From Bdellovibrio sp. ZAP7 (lineage in GTDB: Bacteria; Bdellovibrionota; UBA1018): a stretch of DNA of 35,115 nucleotides. A model generated the notes under the pieces. It had not been told where the DNA came from. It saw nothing but the letters and a program-made list of their open reading frames with translations, and searched no databases. A program made the translations under genes and the position numbers. Positions 1-29,578 of this stretch are shown piece by piece. The stretch lies in contig CAMBEX010000003.1 in assembly GCA_945865865.1 (NCBI GenBank), positions 1-35,115 on the forward strand. The letters are read 5' to 3'. Each line of letters starts with the position of its first letter. Within the stretch, counting starts at the first letter, position 1.

Positions 1-1033
1 CCACGTGAACTTGGTCAGCTTCCCATCCGGCAATTTTCAAATCGCTGACACTCAATTTTCCTTGGGCGCTCAGAGTTTTTTCGAGCGCCAGGAGATCTGC
101 CTGGATCTTGCCCGCGAAAACCAGGTTACCTCCCGGTGAGCTTGCCTGCCGGGACGACGCCTACCCGCGAACCCATGGAATCGCCTTGGAAAGTTCAGCC
201 GAGATCTTGACCTCACCGTTCGCATCGAGCCGTTTTGGATCCAAGAGATTTCCGGCGACCGATCCGGATGCTTCGATACGCACTTCGTCGTCCAAGATCA
301 CGAGGTTCTCAAGCGCAAGTCCTGTGGGGTCGGCAAAGAGTTTGGCGGAGAGCCTCTTGAGATACCTCGTTTCATTTTTGTTCTTGCCCACGAAAAGACT
401 ACCGGCTGCACGAACGTCTCGGAGATCTACATCGACGTCGTAACCCGCACGCCCTCCCCGAGTATCCCGGGACAGTCGGATCGACTCCGCAATGAGTTCC
501 GTCCAGGAGTTCTCCGTCTTTACGCCACCCCGATCTTGTCCCCAAACCAAGCGCACCTTCGTGTCCTTGAGCGCTACGGCCTCGCATTGAATATTGAGCG
601 CCTCGTCCCAGCGAAAGCGGCGATTTGTTTTTTCTGCCGCGGGCCGATCCCATGCGGATGGATCAAAATCGACCAAAACGTCGCCCCGGTGAATGACCAC
701 TTCATTGATCCGAATATTTCCGGAGAGCATCTGAAACGGCAGAAAGTTGAGGTCGATCCTTTCGGCAGAGATCGCTGAGTCCGCCGGGAGGTTGAAAATA
801 TTTTTGCTGTCGAGCGTGAGCCTGGGATTTTTGATCGAAACTCCCGGCGGAAAAAGGGCGATTGAAAGATCCGAGAAATCCCCCTGAACGCCCATTTCGG
901 CTGGAAGCTTTTGAGCAACCGTTTTTTTGACGATTCGGGCAAACGCTTCGCTCTGAATAAAGCCGACCGCGGCTCCGACCAGTGCGCTTACGACCATGAT
1001 GAAAATCAAAAAGGGGCTCTTAAACATTCTCAA
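1..1033 (-). pseudogene. AsmA-like membrane-anchored protein, interrupted by an in-frame TAG (161-163) and continuing past the window edge
   Basis: N-terminal TM helix then AsmA-like beta-rich sequence (VQGDFSDLSIALFPPGVSIKNPRLTL). Past the TAG the same frame stays open to base 1 and reads ASSRQASSPGGNLVFAGKIQADLLALEKTLSAQGKLSVSDLKIAGWEADQVHV. Start is TTG at 1033 or ATG at 1027. Confidence 0.65.
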
Positions 1034-1866
1034 TCCATCGAGTCGAGTTTTTTGATTCTTTCCGCGCAGTCGCGATAGGAGCGGTCAGTTTCCAGGACCT
1101 GCTCATACCAGCCCTGGGCCAAGCCAGGCTCACCGAGCGCTTCTTGCGCGCGGGCCATTAAATAAAAGAAGTGTATTTTTTCCTCGCCAGAAACATCGGA
1201 GTCTCCCACGATCGGCTCCAGAACCATCGCTGCATCAAAAGCTCTCTCAGCTAGGATCAGCGAATAGGCCAAAAGCGCCTGAGCCGGCAGAGACTCCCGT
1301 CCGGCCGCCTTGAACTGCTCGATACTCAACTCGAGCAGCCCCATTTCTAGAAATGCGACGCCCCAATCGATGCGATCCTGCGCGGTGAGTTCGCTGTGCC
1401 GCTGGCCTAGATCGATGGAAAACTTCGCCCAACCTTTTTGTTCTTTTGCGTCTTGAAACAAGGACAGGGCCGCTACACCGCCCAAATTAAAATCCCGGTC
1501 GAGCGCCACAAGGATCGCCTCGACGTCTAACGCTTCGGGAGCAGGCCCCTGGCTTCGAGAACGGCGACCCTCCGCACTCAAGAGGTGGCTCAACTCAAGC
1601 TCAGCAATTTCCGCGAGCTTCTCTTGGGCCAGCACATGATCCGGCTGCGCCATGACTATCCGTCTTAAAACTTTTTTGGCTTCCTCAGTCAAACCTTCAC
1701 TCAAAAGAATATGGGCGCTCTGAAGATCATCGTCGATAGACGGGGAGGATGCCGCACCCACAACTCCCTGGGGTGACGGAACTACGTGCGTAAGTACTGC
1801 GGTCTTTTCGAGGAGATCATCCCCAAGATCGACGACCGTGCCTTCGACGTTTTCGGGAGGGCGCAT
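1030..1866 (-). CDS. TPR-type tetratricopeptide protein
   Basis: Helical repeat pattern (AHILLSEGLTEEAKKVLRRIVMAQPDHVLAQEKLAEI; FYLMARAQEALGEPGLAQGWYEQVLETD); stop overlaps the start of the AsmA-like gene. Confidence 0.75.
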   Translation of the reverse strand: MRPPENVEGTVVDLGDDLLEKTAVLTHVVPSPQGVVGAASSPSIDDDLQSAHILLSEGLTEEAKKVLRRIVMAQPDHVLAQEKLAEIAELELSHLLSAEGRRSRSQGPAPEALDVEAILVALDRDFNLGGVAALSLFQDAKEQKGWAKFSIDLGQRHSELTAQDRIDWGVAFLEMGLLELSIEQFKAAGRESLPAQALLAYSLILAERAFDAAMVLEPIVGDSDVSGEEKIHFFYLMARAQEALGEPGLAQGWYEQVLETDRSYRDCAERIKKLDSMD

Positions 1867-1876
1867 CCCTTGAATT

Positions 1877-3232
1877 TTACTCGTATTTCGGCAGGAACTC
1901 TTCCAAAAAATGCGTGTCGTAGTCGGAGTCGCGGAACTTCTTACTGTTCATGATTTTTTTGTGGAACGGGATGTTCGTTTTAATGCCTTCGATGACATAT
2001 TCGTCAAGCGCCTGACGCATTTTCGCGATCGCTTCGTCCCGCGTTGGGGCATGGACAATGAGTTTTCCGATCATCGAATCGTAAAAGGGAACGACCTTGT
2101 ACTGAGCGTAGACAAAAGAGTCGACCCGCACTCCAAAGCCGCCTGGCGTATGAAGGGCCGTGATTTTTCCGGGCGATGGGGCAAAGCGCTCGGGATCTTC
2201 AGCATTGATCCGACACTCAATGGCGTGTGACTTGATCTGGATATCTTTCTGGGTGAGCTTTAGTTTCTTGCCCGCTGATACGGCGATTTGTTCCTTGATC
2301 AGATCCACGCCGACAACCATCTCGGTCACGGGATGTTCGACCTGAATCCGGGTGTTCATTTCCATGAAGTAAAACTTGCCCTTTTCGACCAAGAATTCGA
2401 CCGTACCCACGTTCTCGTAATTGACCGCGTCGCAAAGCTTCAGTGCCGCGCGCCCCATTTCTTCACGCAGCTTCGCGTCCAAAACCGGGCTTGGGCACTC
2501 CTCGAGCATTTTTTGGTGGCGGCGCTGAATCGTACAATCGCGTTCACCCAAAAAGAGACGATTGCCGAACTTGTCGCAAAGCACCTGGATCTCGACGTGC
2601 CGCGGATGTTCGCAGTACTTTTCAAGATACATTGCCGGATTTCCGAACGCAGCGCCGGCCTCAGAACTCACGCGATCAAAAGAGGCCCTGAGCTGTTGCT
2701 CGTTATAAACGACATGAATCCCGCGTCCACCGCCCCCAGCAGCCGCCTTGAGAATGACGGGATATTCAATTTTTCGTGCCTCTTCGACAGCGGCCTCAAG
2801 CCCTGGAACCGCTTCCGTAGTGCCGGGCAACATGGGGACACCGGCGGCCTTGGCGATCGCGCGAGCCCGGGTCTTTTCACCCATGGCCATAATATTTTCA
2901 GGCGAAGGCCCGATGAACGTCACCTTGCATTCGCGGCAAAGACGCGCAAATTCGGCATTTTCTGACAAAAATCCGTAACCAGGATGGATCGCGTCGGCCC
3001 CCGTGATATCCGCGGCCGAAAGGATGCTCGCCATATTGAGGTAGCTCAATTTTGACTGCGGTGGGCCGATGCAAACCGCCTCATCAGCTAGCTTCACGTG
3101 AAGCGAATGCTCGTCGGCGGTGGAATACACAGCGACTGTTGAAATACCTAGCTCGCGACACGCGCGAATCACGCGGAGTGCGATCTCTCCGCGATTTGCG
3201 ATCAATACTTTTCGAAATAGAGGTGCCGTCAT
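1877..3232 (-). CDS. accC: Acetyl-CoA carboxylase biotin carboxylase subunit
   Basis: FRKVLIANRGEIALRVIRACRELGI, KAAAGGGGRGI, EMNTRIQVEHPVTEMV motifs; 451 aa; adjacent to accB. Confidence 0.97.
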   Translation of the reverse strand: MTAPLFRKVLIANRGEIALRVIRACRELGISTVAVYSTADEHSLHVKLADEAVCIGPPQSKLSYLNMASILSAADITGADAIHPGYGFLSENAEFARLCRECKVTFIGPSPENIMAMGEKTRARAIAKAAGVPMLPGTTEAVPGLEAAVEEARKIEYPVILKAAAGGGGRGIHVVYNEQQLRASFDRVSSEAGAAFGNPAMYLEKYCEHPRHVEIQVLCDKFGNRLFLGERDCTIQRRHQKMLEECPSPVLDAKLREEMGRAALKLCDAVNYENVGTVEFLVEKGKFYFMEMNTRIQVEHPVTEMVVGVDLIKEQIAVSAGKKLKLTQKDIQIKSHAIECRINAEDPERFAPSPGKITALHTPGGFGVRVDSFVYAQYKVVPFYDSMIGKLIVHAPTRDEAIAKMRQALDEYVIEGIKTNIPFHKKIMNSKKFRDSDYDTHFLEEFLPKYE

Positions 3233-3252: not shown

Positions 3253-3783
3253 TCAGGTTTCGATCACAAAAAGCGGTTCACCGAATTCAACCGGCTGACC
3301 GTTTTCAGCAAGAATGGACACCACCTTGCCATTGAACTCAGACTCGATCTCATTCATGAGCTTCATCGCTTCGATGATGCAAAGAACATCACCCCGTTTT
3401 ACGGACTTGCCTTCGTTGACGTAAGCCTCAACGTCAGGCGAGGGTCTGCGGTAAAAAGTTCCCACAAACGGCGACAAGATTTGTTTTTGATTTGCAGGCA
3501 GTACGCCCGGCTTTAGATCCGTATTTGCTGCGGAACCGTTTGCGTGATTTGCGCCTGCGCCATTGGATCCAGCTTGTGCGGGAGCATAACCGATTGCGGG
3601 AGCCGAGGCTGAATACACGGTTTCAGAAACCACACCCCATTTGCTGCGAATACGGATTTTCTCACCGCCGCGATCCCACTCGAGCTCCGCCATTTCGTGG
3701 CGCGCCATCATCTCAAAAACAGATTCGAGATCTTTCAAAGGAGTCTGTGGACTTCTTGCCTTCGCAACCGTCTTTTTAGCCAC
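3253..3783 (-). CDS. accB: Acetyl-CoA carboxylase biotin carboxyl carrier protein; probable GTG start at 3783
   Basis: Biotinylation motif [11 protein letters not shown]-terminal biotinyl domain. The ORF-track start at 3879 would overlap efp by ~95 nt; GTG ([11 protein letters not shown]) lies just after the efp stop. Confidence 0.93.
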
Positions 3784-3784
3784 G

Positions 3785-4345
3785 TTACTTATTCGCCTTT
3801 TCTGAATAGGAATAATCGCGGGTATCCACTTTGATGAAATCCCCTTCTTTGATGTGAAAGGGAACGTTGACCACAGCACCCGTCTCTAGCGTCGCGGGCT
3901 TTGTGCCTCCTACCGTGTCGCCCTTGAACGAACCCGTGGTTTCCTTGATTTGCAGTACGACGAAAGTGGGAAGCTCAACGCCGATCGGGCGTTCGTTGAA
4001 GTACATGACTTTGATCACGAGACTTTCCTGAAGAAAATCTTTGCCTTCGCCCAACTGTTCGCCGCTGAGAACAGCCTGTTCAAAATTGGTCTGATCCATG
4101 AAATGAAACCCCTCGGCATCGCGATAGAGGTAGGACATTTCTTTTTCTTCGGTATTGGCTCGGTCCAGCTTATCGCCCGAGGTGATCGTTCGTTCGATCA
4201 CGTTCTGATTCAGCATGTTCTTGAGTTTGGTTCGCGTAAACGCCCGACCTTTGCCTGGACTGACATGCTGGAAATCCACGATTTCAAAGGGAACGCCGTC
4301 AAGCTCGACCTTGAGGCCTTTGCGAAACTGATTGGTTGGGTACAT
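3785..4345 (-). CDS. efp: Translation elongation factor P
   Basis: [44 protein letters not shown] is typical EF-P domain I; 186 aa. Confidence 0.96.
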
Positions 4346-9816: not shown

Positions 9817-10458
9817 CTATTCGAAGGAAATTTCTGCCGATTGACCGTTTAAAAGTAAAACTGAGAGTCGATCTCGCCGAATCGTCAGTTCATTGACAGC
9901 ACTGCCTGGTACCTCAATGTCTTGGCGGGGGATGATTCCGAAGCCCGCCATCTGTTCTTGATTCGACCACTCTACGCTGCTTCCTTCGAGCGGATCGTAA
10001 CAAAATGTCTCCGAAAGCCCAGGAATTCCGATTTCTTTTCCGCGCGTCGGACTCAAAAGCGAAAATTTTTCTGCGTGAGCAGAAGCCATGAGCGTGCCTT
10101 CTCGCACGACTGCTCCAGAAGGCTCAAAACAGTTGGCCGACTTTTCGACGCGAAAGCTGAGACTTCCCTGGCCCGCGAATCGTATCCGGTAGGCATGCTG
10201 ATCAGCAGCTGCCTCGCGCTTCATCTTCGAGACCTCTTGCGCAAGCACCCTGGACGCCTCAATCGCACGCCAATGCGGCAGTCGTTCGAGTACGATCGGA
10301 ACCGCCGACAGCCCAAAAAAAACCAAAACTGTGGCGCCGATCCAAAGACCGCGCTTCCTTCGCGCGCGAACGACGACCTTTTCCCAGAGCTCATAGTGTT
10401 CCCACTGAGCTCGGGCGCTTCGCTCTTCGGCTACATCAGTTTCATGAATGGGAGCCAT
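9817..10458 (-). CDS. Hypothetical single-TM protein in the pil cluster, possibly pseudopilin (FimT/GspH)-like
   Basis: One TM (GLWIGATVLVFFGLSAVPIVL) followed by EASRVLAQEVSKMKREAAADQHAYRIRF...SLSFRV; no GFTLIE motif. Located between pilD and pilM. Confidence 0.6.
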   Translation of the reverse strand: MAPIHETDVAEERSARAQWEHYELWEKVVVRARRKRGLWIGATVLVFFGLSAVPIVLERLPHWRAIEASRVLAQEVSKMKREAAADQHAYRIRFAGQGSLSFRVEKSANCFEPSGAVVREGTLMASAHAEKFSLLSPTRGKEIGIPGLSETFCYDPLEGSSVEWSNQEQMAGFGIIPRQDIEVPGSAVNELTIRRDRLSVLLLNGQSAEISFE

Positions 10459-11270
10459 TCGAGATCCCCTAAAAAGTAGTAATAGAGTGCCCCTAAAACC
10501 AGAAAGGGACCATACGGAATTGCGACATTCATCAGGCCGCCGCTTGGGGCTTCGTCTGAACCGCTTTCGGACGCCGCTGTTTTGCGAGTAGCCAGTGCAT
10601 AGGTGATTCCGATCACACTCCCCATCACTGAGCTGATCAGAACCGTTGAAAAAACGCCTGCAGGCCCGAGAAACGCGCCAAACATGGCCAGCAATTTAAT
10701 GTCGCCGCCCCCTAAGCCTACTTTTCCTTTGAGTCGGTAATAGGTCCACGAAAGGCCGTAAAAAAATCCAAATCCAAGAGCCGCTCCCACTAGCGCCATC
10801 ACGAGGCCCAATCCAGGCACAAACCAAGCAGTTAAAAGCCCAAGTACCAGCCCGCCCAGACTGAGCTCATCCGGAATAATTCTGTGTTCGAGATCAATGA
10901 AGGTGATGGCAACCAGTGACGCGACAAAAGGCCAATCGCGAATCAGGAGCAGCCCGCCCACTCCGAACTTAATCTCGGTCGCCAAAAAAAGGAGCGCCAC
11001 CAAAAGCTCAATCGCAGGATAGCGGACGGAAATCGAAGTCTTGCACCCACGGCAACGGCCTCGGAGCACTAAATAGCTCAAGACCGGAATATTGTCGTAC
11101 CAGGCAATCGACTTCTCGCACTTGGGACAGCGGCTTCTCGGCGTCACAATCGACTGCCCATGCGGAAGTCTCGCCACCACAACGTTAATAAAACTCCCGA
11201 CGACCAGGCCAAATGCAATAGCCATCGTGTGAGTAAACCAGGGCGGCAGCAGTTGAAGCGTCAGCGTCAC
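10431..11270 (-). CDS. pilD: Type IV prepilin peptidase (A24); probable GTG start at 11270
   Basis: GSFINVVVARLPHGQSIVTPRSRCPKCEKSIAWYDNIPVLSYLVLRGRCRGCKTSIS zinc-type N-domain and FIDLEHRIIPDELSL, GGGDIKLLAMFGAFLG catalytic motifs. The ORF-track start at 11363 overlaps the permease ORF. Confidence 0.95.
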   Translation of the reverse strand: MTLTLQLLPPWFTHTMAIAFGLVVGSFINVVVARLPHGQSIVTPRSRCPKCEKSIAWYDNIPVLSYLVLRGRCRGCKTSISVRYPAIELLVALLFLATEIKFGVGGLLLIRDWPFVASLVAITFIDLEHRIIPDELSLGGLVLGLLTAWFVPGLGLVMALVGAALGFGFFYGLSWTYYRLKGKVGLGGGDIKLLAMFGAFLGPAGVFSTVLISSVMGSVIGITYALATRKTAASESGSDEAPSGGLMNVAIPYGPFLVLGALYYYFLGDLEWLPFMKLM

Positions 11271-11274
11271 GAGC

Positions 11275-12099
11275 TCAGGCCTCTTTTCTACCTGCGAGTC
11301 CGCCCGCAAGCAGCAAGCAGAGCGCAACGAGTGCGAAGGTGTAGACGATCCCTGTTGCAACAAACTGCCAGGTCACAGGGAGCCCATAGGTCACTTTCGT
11401 TCCAAATTGAAAATGCTCAAAATTGGGGAGCACTAAAGCCGCCGTATTGATGGCGCCGCGAATCGGAAGCGACTCGATTTTGGTGGCCACCATCCTGATT
11501 TGCGAAATATTAGAGCCCACCATGAAAGCGCCAATAGTCATCACAGCCGAGAGGGATGTCGTAGAAAACGACGAACAAAAAACGGCAAGTGCCGCCAGGA
11601 CCCAGGATTGCAAAAGCGCGAACCCTACCGCGATCCAAAGAGTCGCGCTAAAGACCGGCGCGTCACCCGCGACATATTTCAAGATCGCCAGATAACAGCC
11701 CGCCATCAGCAGCCAGTTAAGCGTGAGTACCGCGGCAAGGCCCGCGAACTTGCCTGCGACAAATTGAGTTCTAGAGATCGGCCGGGTCAGCGCCACCAAG
11801 ATCGTGCGCCGCTCGAACTCTCGGGCCAGCATTCCTGAACCGATAAAAACCCCGAGCGCACCACACGAAATCAAAAGCGCGGTCAGTCCAAAGTTCAAAA
11901 CAATCCGCTCAGGGCGAAAAAACGTCAGGTTTGAAGCTAGAAATGCGACGCCAAAGAGCAGAACCCCGCAAACCAGGGTGTTGTAGAGGACCTTGTCGCG
12001 GAGAATCTCAGACAGCGTCACGCGCGCGATGCCTGCGACCACCCTAGGCGTAGAAGTAAGCCCTTGGATTGGATTCATGTCTGATCTCTCATGGGTCAC
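11275..12099 (-). CDS. ABC-2 type transporter permease; candidate PilI equivalent
   Basis: Six-TM-like ABC-2 permease (ARVTLSEILRDKVLYNTLVCGVLLFG; REFERRTILVALTRPISRTQFVAGKF); in a pil cluster next to an ABC ATPase. Start could be the internal Met (MNPIQ). Confidence 0.82.
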   Translation of the reverse strand: MTHERSDMNPIQGLTSTPRVVAGIARVTLSEILRDKVLYNTLVCGVLLFGVAFLASNLTFFRPERIVLNFGLTALLISCGALGVFIGSGMLAREFERRTILVALTRPISRTQFVAGKFAGLAAVLTLNWLLMAGCYLAILKYVAGDAPVFSATLWIAVGFALLQSWVLAALAVFCSSFSTTSLSAVMTIGAFMVGSNISQIRMVATKIESLPIRGAINTAALVLPNFEHFQFGTKVTYGLPVTWQFVATGIVYTFALVALCLLLAGGLAGRKEA

Positions 12100-25746: not shown

Positions 25747-27681
25747 CTACTGACGCATCTGGGCTAAATTTTCTTCAATCGCCCGGCCCTCTAGAATCCA
25801 ATGCGAGAAGCGTGTGCGCGCCTCGGATTCGCTGACCACTCCCGCCTTTGAGGCAAACCGAACCATTTCTGCATAGGCCAAGGCCTGATCGATTCGATTC
25901 CAGATGGATTCTGTTAGGCCGAGTTCCACAACCAATCGTTGCCTGAGTTCACTCCTTGCCACTCCCCGCGAACCCAGCGCAAAATGACGATCAATCAGGT
26001 CATAAATCGCGCCGGCAAAAAGCTCATAAGACTGAACGATCTGTGGCCAAGCCTCTGTTTGCGACCTCTTTCCGCGCTCAGCCAGCCGGTCCCAGCTTTT
26101 GCTTTTTGAGTCCACTGGGACCTTGGGGCGTAGCCAACCCCCACGCATCCGCCTCATCCCAAAGTCGAAGGCAACAAAACCCAAAACGACTCCGAACGCG
26201 AGGTAGCCCAGCCACGGTAAAACCCGGAGCAATTTCCCCTGGTAGACTCCCCTACCTGATTGGGTTGTTTGGTTACCCGGTGCGCCCAAGGATCGAAGCG
26301 GGCTCATTTGCATTTCTTGCTTGGCGTTCTGCGCCACATTTGGCGCCCCGTTTTGCACCCCGTTTTGCGCTGCCAAATTTTCGGCTGCACCAGACTGCAG
26401 CACTTCGATCTCAATGGAGTCGATAGCTCGAGTGAAATATTCCCGCTTACTGGGTGAGAAAAATCCAAACTCCATTTTTGGAACTGCGAATTTTCCAGGC
26501 TGCCGAGGGATCAGGGTAAATTCAAAAATCTTTTCTCCCACCCCACCTTTTCCACTTTTGGCCTTCGCCTTGACTTCAAAGACCTCGACCCCCTCAGGCC
26601 ATGCGACTTTGGGCTCGGAGATAGAAGCCACGTTTCCCTGACCTTCTACCTTGACGGTCAAACTCAGTGCCTCATTTGCACGGACCGAATACTTGTCCAC
26701 GCCGCTAGTCACTGTGAAATCACCTACGCCCCCCGAAAATGAAGCGGGGCGGCCTTCGGTCGGAAGAGGTAAAACCTCAAGACTGATGCTTTCGCTCCGA
26801 ACGCTGTTGGTCCGGGGAGCGATTTGCTGAAAAAAAGTCGCAAACGGATCCATCGCATCGTCCGTCAAATCCGATCCGGGCGAGTAGCTCGCCTTGATTC
26901 CCATTGAATCAATTTTGACCTTTCCGTCCCGACCTTCCTTGAGAGGGTAGGCCGCGTAGCGTGCCAAGAGCGCTCGCTCGTACGGAACGCCATCCAGCAT
27001 CACCTGCTCGCTTTCCAAGCGCTGGCCAAGTACTGGAATCTCAAGGTCCTCGCGTAAAAATCCGTCGAGCACCGGATATTTTTCGACCTGAATATTAAAC
27101 ACTCGAACGCGTCGATAGAGAGAGTAACTCACGATGACCTGCTCGCCCTTGTAGGCTCGGTCCTTGTCGATTTCGGCGCGTACAAAAAAATTTCGGCCCG
27201 GGTCTTTTTTTCCAGCACCCCTGAGGCCAATCCCGCTGCCTCCGTAATTTCTCGGAATCGGCGTGCCGGCTCCGCCACCGCCCACATGGATCGTGATCGG
27301 ATTACTCTTATGGGCCTTACCCCCGACCGAGACCTGAATCCCAGAGATGACGAGACTGCCGGTCTTGAGCGGGCGCAAGACGCGAGTGAACTGACGGTTG
27401 TTTCGCACTCCAAAATTTCCGTTTTCGTAATACGACTCAACGAACACACCGCTGTAGCGATTGACCTCTTCAAAATGAGGAGCGGAAAACTGAGGTTCTG
27501 CGGTATTTGAAGTTCCATCGACCCGTACAGAAAATTTCAGAGAGACGGTCTCGTCCTCGCCGATTTGAGTGCGGTCCACGGTCACTGAAAACTGAACCTG
27601 CTCGGCATCCGCGCCCCAAGCAAGCGCCGAGTGGAAAATCAAAACTCCGACTAAAGCAGACATCCACTTTCGTGGGTTCAT
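25747..27681 (-). CDS. batD: BatD-like aerotolerance protein; probable start MNPRKWM at 27681
   Basis: Signal peptide, VTVDRTQIGEDETVSLKFSVRVDG and repeated oxygen-tolerance-type domains, C-terminal TM; location in Bat cluster. Confidence 0.87.
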   Translation of the reverse strand: MNPRKWMSALVGVLIFHSALAWGADAEQVQFSVTVDRTQIGEDETVSLKFSVRVDGTSNTAEPQFSAPHFEEVNRYSGVFVESYYENGNFGVRNNRQFTRVLRPLKTGSLVISGIQVSVGGKAHKSNPITIHVGGGGAGTPIPRNYGGSGIGLRGAGKKDPGRNFFVRAEIDKDRAYKGEQVIVSYSLYRRVRVFNIQVEKYPVLDGFLREDLEIPVLGQRLESEQVMLDGVPYERALLARYAAYPLKEGRDGKVKIDSMGIKASYSPGSDLTDDAMDPFATFFQQIAPRTNSVRSESISLEVLPLPTEGRPASFSGGVGDFTVTSGVDKYSVRANEALSLTVKVEGQGNVASISEPKVAWPEGVEVFEVKAKAKSGKGGVGEKIFEFTLIPRQPGKFAVPKMEFGFFSPSKREYFTRAIDSIEIEVLQSGAAENLAAQNGVQNGAPNVAQNAKQEMQMSPLRSLGAPGNQTTQSGRGVYQGKLLRVLPWLGYLAFGVVLGFVAFDFGMRRMRGGWLRPKVPVDSKSKSWDRLAERGKRSQTEAWPQIVQSYELFAGAIYDLIDRHFALGSRGVARSELRQRLVVELGLTESIWNRIDQALAYAEMVRFASKAGVVSESEARTRFSHWILEGRAIEENLAQMRQ

Positions 27682-27703
27682 CTTGAACTCTCCTTCATAA
27701 CTC

Positions 27704-29578
27704 TCACCAGTCCTTGCCACCGGACTCGGACCTTCGCCCCTGCTGACGCTTGAGCTTGGCCTGAAGTTCGCGTTCACGATTTCCTAAATCAGCCATGACC
27801 CGCTCAGCATCCTCTTTGGACAGGTGCTTGGACTTAAATTCACGCTGCCGAGTACGAGTGGGGTCCTGATATTGCTTTTGTTGATCTTGCTGCTTTTGCT
27901 CACCGGAGTCCGCGCTTTTCTGTTCGTCTTTTTTTTCAGCCTGATCCTTCTTGTCCTGCTTGTCTTGCTGGCTCTGTCCTTGCTCGTTTTTCTGGTCCTG
28001 ATTTTGTTTCTGATCTTGCTTTTCTTGGTCCTTTTTTTGCTGCTCACGGACCAAAATCTCGATCTTTTTTCGCGCATCCGTCTCAACCTGTGCGTCTCCG
28101 GCTGCCTTCGCCGAAGTGATCGCGCCTAGGTAGGAGCCAATCGCGTGATCGATGTCCGCGTTTTTTTCAAAGGCCGCACCCAGGTTATAAAATGAGCGTG
28201 CAGAGAGCGCAGAATCCCGGACCTGATTGGCCGCAGCGGCAGAGCCTGAAAAATTTCGAATGGCCGCCTCCGTGTCTCCCTGCTGAAGTTGGGTGACCCC
28301 CTGATTAAACTGGGGTGCAGCCAATCCGGGATTGAGAGCTTGCGCCTCGCCAAACTTCAGTTTGGCTTCTTCAAGCTTTCCTTCTTGATACAGTTTGAGA
28401 CCTTCTTGATTTTCAAGATAAACGTCCATCGGAACCGCATGGGCCGGACGCACTCCCAACAGGCTGGCTAGGCCCAGCGATGCGAAGAACCACGAAGCTA
28501 AGACGTCAGGGCGCGAGCTTTTCAGTTCCGCCGCTGAGTTTTCACGGAGAATCTTTCTCGCAGGCATCGAAAATTCCAGAAAAAATAAAAACACCGCAAC
28601 CGCCAGAGGCCATTGGTAACGCTCCTGATAGGTCACAATCCGCCGCTCGGCGTTCTCGCTGCGGTTCAACTTTCCAAGGTCGCCGAGCAACTCTTCGAGT
28701 TCAGATTCAGAGGGCGTGACGCTCCAATATTTTCCGCCCGCCACTGACGCTACCTGCATCAGCGCCTTGGGATCAAAAGAACTCACGACGGTTTCATTGC
28801 CGTGCCTTTTGTGTCCGTGCAAAACACCGGATTCATCTCGCACCGGAATCGGTCCGCCTTTTTCGGTGCCCACACCCAAAGTGTAAAATCGAATCCCCTT
28901 GGACTTCAGCATTCTTGCGGCATCCAATGCGCCTTGTTCTTGATCCTCACCATCCGAGATCAAAACCACTGCCTTTGAGGCAAGGTCTGGCCGATTAGCG
29001 CTGCCGTCACCCCCCTCCTCGGCTCCACGTTCCAGCGACTGCAGGGCTGTTTCGAGCGCGATTCCAATATCTGTTCCCTGGTTGGTCACCACGGACGGCC
29101 CCAGGATTTCAAGCGTCTCTAGGAAATACTGAAAATCCGTGGTCAAAGGACACGCGACAAACGCACTGGCCGCGAACGCTACCGCACCCACTCGGTCCCC
29201 CTTGAGCGCTTCGACAAGATTTCTAATCAGATGCTTGGCCTTTTTGATTCGGCTCGGAACCACATCCTCAACCAACATGCTGTTTGAAACGTCGAGTACC
29301 AGCATGATGTCAAGGCCATCCACTTTGACAATTTCCTCTTGGCGGCCCCACTGAGGTCTGGCAAGCGCAAGAAAAACGAACGCCAGTGCGATGAGCGCAA
29401 GGCGCGCCTTTCTGAAAAGAGCCCCGGGCTCCAGCTCAGGTGCAACCCGCGACCAAAGGCTGGGGTGAATGGTTTTTGAAAATTTGAGAACCCGAGATTT
29501 CTGCTGGTGGCGTAGAAACAAATAAACGAGGGGCAAGAAAGTGAGTGCCCAAAGCCAACCGGGATACACGAACTTCAC
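27704..29578 (-). CDS. BatB-BatC fusion: VWA protein with C-terminal TPR and Q/K/D-rich tail
   Basis: LDIMLVLDVSNSM MIDAS motif with N-terminal TM helices; TPRs (NQGVTQLQQGDTEAAIRNFSGSAAAAN); low-complexity tail. Confidence 0.9.
   Translation of the reverse strand: MKFVYPGWLWALTFLPLVYLFLRHQQKSRVLKFSKTIHPSLWSRVAPELEPGALFRKARLALIALAFVFLALARPQWGRQEEIVKVDGLDIMLVLDVSNSMLVEDVVPSRIKKAKHLIRNLVEALKGDRVGAVAFAASAFVACPLTTDFQYFLETLEILGPSVVTNQGTDIGIALETALQSLERGAEEGGDGSANRPDLASKAVVLISDGEDQEQGALDAARMLKSKGIRFYTLGVGTEKGGPIPVRDESGVLHGHKRHGNETVVSSFDPKALMQVASVAGGKYWSVTPSESELEELLGDLGKLNRSENAERRIVTYQERYQWPLAVAVFLFFLEFSMPARKILRENSAAELKSSRPDVLASWFFASLGLASLLGVRPAHAVPMDVYLENQEGLKLYQEGKLEEAKLKFGEAQALNPGLAAPQFNQGVTQLQQGDTEAAIRNFSGSAAAANQVRDSALSARSFYNLGAAFEKNADIDHAIGSYLGAITSAKAAGDAQVETDARKKIEILVREQQKKDQEKQDQKQNQDQKNEQGQSQQDKQDKKDQAEKKDEQKSADSGEQKQQDQQKQYQDPTRTRQREFKSKHLSKEDAERVMADLGNRERELQAKLKRQQGRRSESGGKDW

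Follow-up and report, generated by a model that had tools for sequence, protein, structure and literature searches.

The window, a stretch of 35,115 nucleotides from the Bdellovibrio sp. ZAP7 genome, comprises the whole of contig C3, and window base 1 is the contig end. The assembly is a 2.34-Mb draft in 233 contigs, 86% complete. No Rfam match to an RNA element was obtained anywhere in the window. The left end of the contig carries the following features:

2..160, minus strand: part of tamB that follows the TAG, truncated where the contig ends; its 53 aa alone match relatives
161..163, minus strand: in-frame TAG, at a linker column rich in gaps, from the alignment and the genome search
164..1027, minus strand: tamB 5′ part of 288 codons, with the N-terminal membrane anchor and the first part of the AsmA/TamB fold; matched in 56 of 58 genomes, same-frame homology
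1030..1866, minus strand: TPR-repeat gene directly upstream of tamB, with Pfam TPR matches and a similar ORF at the same place in relatives
1877..3232, minus strand: accC, biotin carboxylase, a conserved neighbour located upstream in relatives too
3253..3879, minus strand: accB-like biotin/lipoyl carrier gene

Minus-strand translation from position 1033 gives ...SKAIPWVRG*ASSRQASSPGGNLVFAGKIQADLLALEKTLSAQGKLSVSDLKIAGWEADQVHV, still open at the window edge. The ATG at 1027-1025 is the likely start of tamB, since relatives open with M-x-K-x-PFLIF, and it gives 288 aa before the stop rather than 290. The TAG at 161-163 is the single in-frame stop codon of this 5′ part and lies 161 bases from the broken contig end; the genome search also lists tamB with one internal TAG. 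Past the TAG, the same frame continues without a stop for 53 codons to window base 1, as the earlier note had observed in reporting more than 50 open codons. The chance expectation of such a run is ~8%, making its length alone unremarkable; the case for a continuing frame therefore rests on homology rather than on length.

TamB, anchored in the inner membrane, is the partner of a TamA-like Omp85 protein and takes part in outer-membrane assembly. Judged by homology, the interrupted gene is the N-terminal quarter of tamB (~344 of ~1,370 codons). The part before the TAG matched 56 of the 58 genomes searched, a set that includes the window's own genome and no other member of its genus. An open tamB frame of 1,271-1,458 codons was present in 45 of the 55 other matching genomes. 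In relatives the gene runs uninterrupted over about 1,370-1,400 codons, in line with the expectation that such proteins are usually much longer than 290 aa. Relatives have accC, the TPR gene and tamB in succession, followed by a POTRA-containing Omp85 (TamA-like) gene, and the upstream part of this order (accC, TPR gene, tamB) is the same in the window. The start, the N-terminal membrane anchor and the N-terminal homology are shared with intact, full-length TamB relatives. Those relatives further possess a C-terminal TamB domain (PF04357, located at the C-terminus of two intact full-length proteins) and the POTRA/Omp85 TamA-like gene directly downstream. In contrast, tamB is here interrupted by the TAG, and only its 5′ quarter is seen because the contig ends inside the gene, leaving the PF04357-encoding part outside the assembled sequence.

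The AsmA family (PF05170) belongs to the same clan and gave a weak N-terminal match (E 0.009), with 15.3 bits against a curated cut-off of 29.8. Identification of the interrupted gene as AsmA was rejected on this score; this genome has its AsmA gene, separate and complete, on contig C114. The description of the ORF as AsmA-like thus stands at the level of the clan, while the gene is specifically tamB.

Homology to TamB continues on both sides of the stop. The 53 residues after the TAG, searched alone, matched relatives over the equivalent stretch (best E 8e-9, 46% identity), confirming that the sequence past the stop is protein-like. This match is colinear with the one before the TAG, keeps its frame and falls where expected; a frameshift at the site was rejected, as homology keeps to one frame. 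Because both flanks match relatives in the same frame, the interruption is read as a single in-frame nonsense codon. In the alignment, the TAG falls in a gap-rich, poorly conserved linker with a conserved stretch on each side. Mean identity to relatives was 0.35 upstream of the TAG and 0.31 downstream. The latter value lies within the range of 0.18-0.34 obtained when relatives were compared with each other over the post-TAG stretch, and there is therefore no sign of decay.

At the DNA level, 38 orthologous loci were examined, and none has an in-frame stop in its matched stretch. Where a tamB frame among these loci is short, it is cut off by a contig edge, by an N gap (G022) or by a deletion plus frameshift (G042). 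A natural split of tamB in relatives was rejected: the break in G022 is an N-filled gap and that in G042 is the deletion and frameshift further downstream. None of the relatives examined ends naturally at this site, although the earlier note had allowed for orthologues that do. A contig search with the window protein yielded no close relatives, and one with an alignment of the gene reached only distant MAGs; the named ones are labelled Bdellovibrionales, Oligoflexia or Bacteriovoracaceae, so that the host probably belongs, as an uncultured member, to this group.

The break in G042, a distant relative (L050, G042:C205, 1697-1732), consists of an internal tamB deletion of ~40 codons with a frameshift, just past the corresponding linker; the G042 assembly is 72% complete.

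A natural two-gene layout, with the TAG closing the first reading frame and another gene starting beyond it, would find some basis in a GGAGGT run 29-34 bases past the TAG and in-frame TTG codons at codon offsets 35 and 40. However, the first 35 codons after the TAG contain no in-frame ATG, GTG or TTG, and the GGAGGT codes for part of an aligned Pro-x-Gly stretch. The second product would also have no membrane anchor, and the site is unsplit in every relative examined. We consider this layout highly improbable.

Reading of the TAG as sense, through general amber recoding or a suppressor tRNA, would yield full-length TamB. The locus resembles amber recoding in that an open, conserved frame runs on past the TAG. 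It differs in that TAG is here a common, normal terminator: among 633 ORFs of at least 300 codons, 163 end in TAG, 271 in TGA and 199 in TAA. Within the window, TAG-ended ORFs include 9817-10458, 10431-11363 and 25747-27777, in agreement with the earlier statement that TAG ends other genes here. Coding frames that span a stop showed no enrichment in TAG; the scan returned mostly natural tandem genes and apparent antisense shadow frames. Both RF1 (PAT motif) and RF2 (SPF motif) are encoded, and no tRNA with a CUA anticodon was present among the 23 tRNAs in the 1.28 Mb scanned, about 55% of the assembly. Relatives, moreover, have no stop at this position. General amber recoding is excluded on the basis of stop usage and RF1, as the earlier note had argued, and read-through of the TAG in either form is very unlikely. 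Still less likely is site-specific read-through that would control how much full-length TamB this lineage makes. Among the origins first listed for the stop (single-base nonsense mutation, sequencing error or suppression), the first two hold, and nothing supports suppression. The stop most likely stems from an ordinary nonsense mutation or from a base error, not from a new reading of the genetic code.

Two further loci of the same assembly have frames parted by a stop. A gene for a repetitive secreted or tail-fibre-like protein with GNVGIGT-type repeats (L088, G000:C21, 13053, minus strand) has an apparent in-frame TGA, with repeat-like sequence for ~300 codons further; it is a second likely stop-interrupted gene, with a stop codon different from that of tamB. 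At L093 (G000:C26, 14947), two CBS-domain-like frames in the same frame are parted by a TGA and a short ATG-bearing spacer and are probably natural tandem genes.

The remaining three quarters of tamB were not found in the assembly. Contigs C114 (AsmA) and C81 (a TamB paralogue) were rejected as its continuation, both being separate genes, and at the DNA level a query of the first 600 bases retrieved nothing but itself. Contig C1 carries a truncated TamA-like gene from its base 2 on (L069, 2-691), with 46% identity over query residues 338-574. This suggests that C3 and C1 are neighbours, lying left end to left end; if the gene order of relatives holds, an unassembled gap of ~4.05 kb between them is implied. 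The last-numbered contig, C233, has 3,029 bases, so pieces below 3 kb may have been dropped.

The locus is very probably an ordinary tamB cut by the contig end, in which one base substitution in the loosely constrained linker turned a sense codon into TAG. For the source of this substitution, we infer a wrong or minority-strain consensus base (~55%) slightly ahead of a genuine recent nonsense mutation (~45%).

That the consensus base near the contig end is wrong or from a minority strain, with tamB intact in the organism, has about an even chance. The short distance from the TAG to the contig end, the ~4 kb between C3 and C1 that failed to assemble or bin, the fragmented and incomplete draft, and the normal-looking constraint past the TAG are all consistent with this reading, but no overlapping second contig with an alternative base was present. 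A literature search on stop errors at contig ends found nothing specific.

Genuine loss of tamB, by a real nonsense mutation fixed in the lineage and tolerated as other AsmA-clan proteins cover the function, appears somewhat short of even odds. A second TamB-domain protein is encoded on C81, an AsmA protein on C114, and one further gene of the assembly is likely interrupted by an in-frame stop. TamB, YhdP and YdbH of E. coli are redundant with one another (PMC8593681); given this redundancy and the C81 and C114 genes, a real loss of tamB would be tolerable. On the other hand, tamB is nearly universal in relatives, the 53 codons past the TAG show no decay, and the site adjoins the contig break. 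Were the mutation genuine, translation would stop after 288 residues, and the product, without the C-terminal TamB domain, would probably fail as a partner to TamA.

The main consequence is for annotation: tamB should be entered here as incomplete and interrupted, with the contig ending inside it, rather than labelled a short AsmA-like protein or taken as evidence of recoding. Should the mutation be real, the bacterium would be one that tolerates losing an outer-membrane biogenesis gene that is nearly universal.
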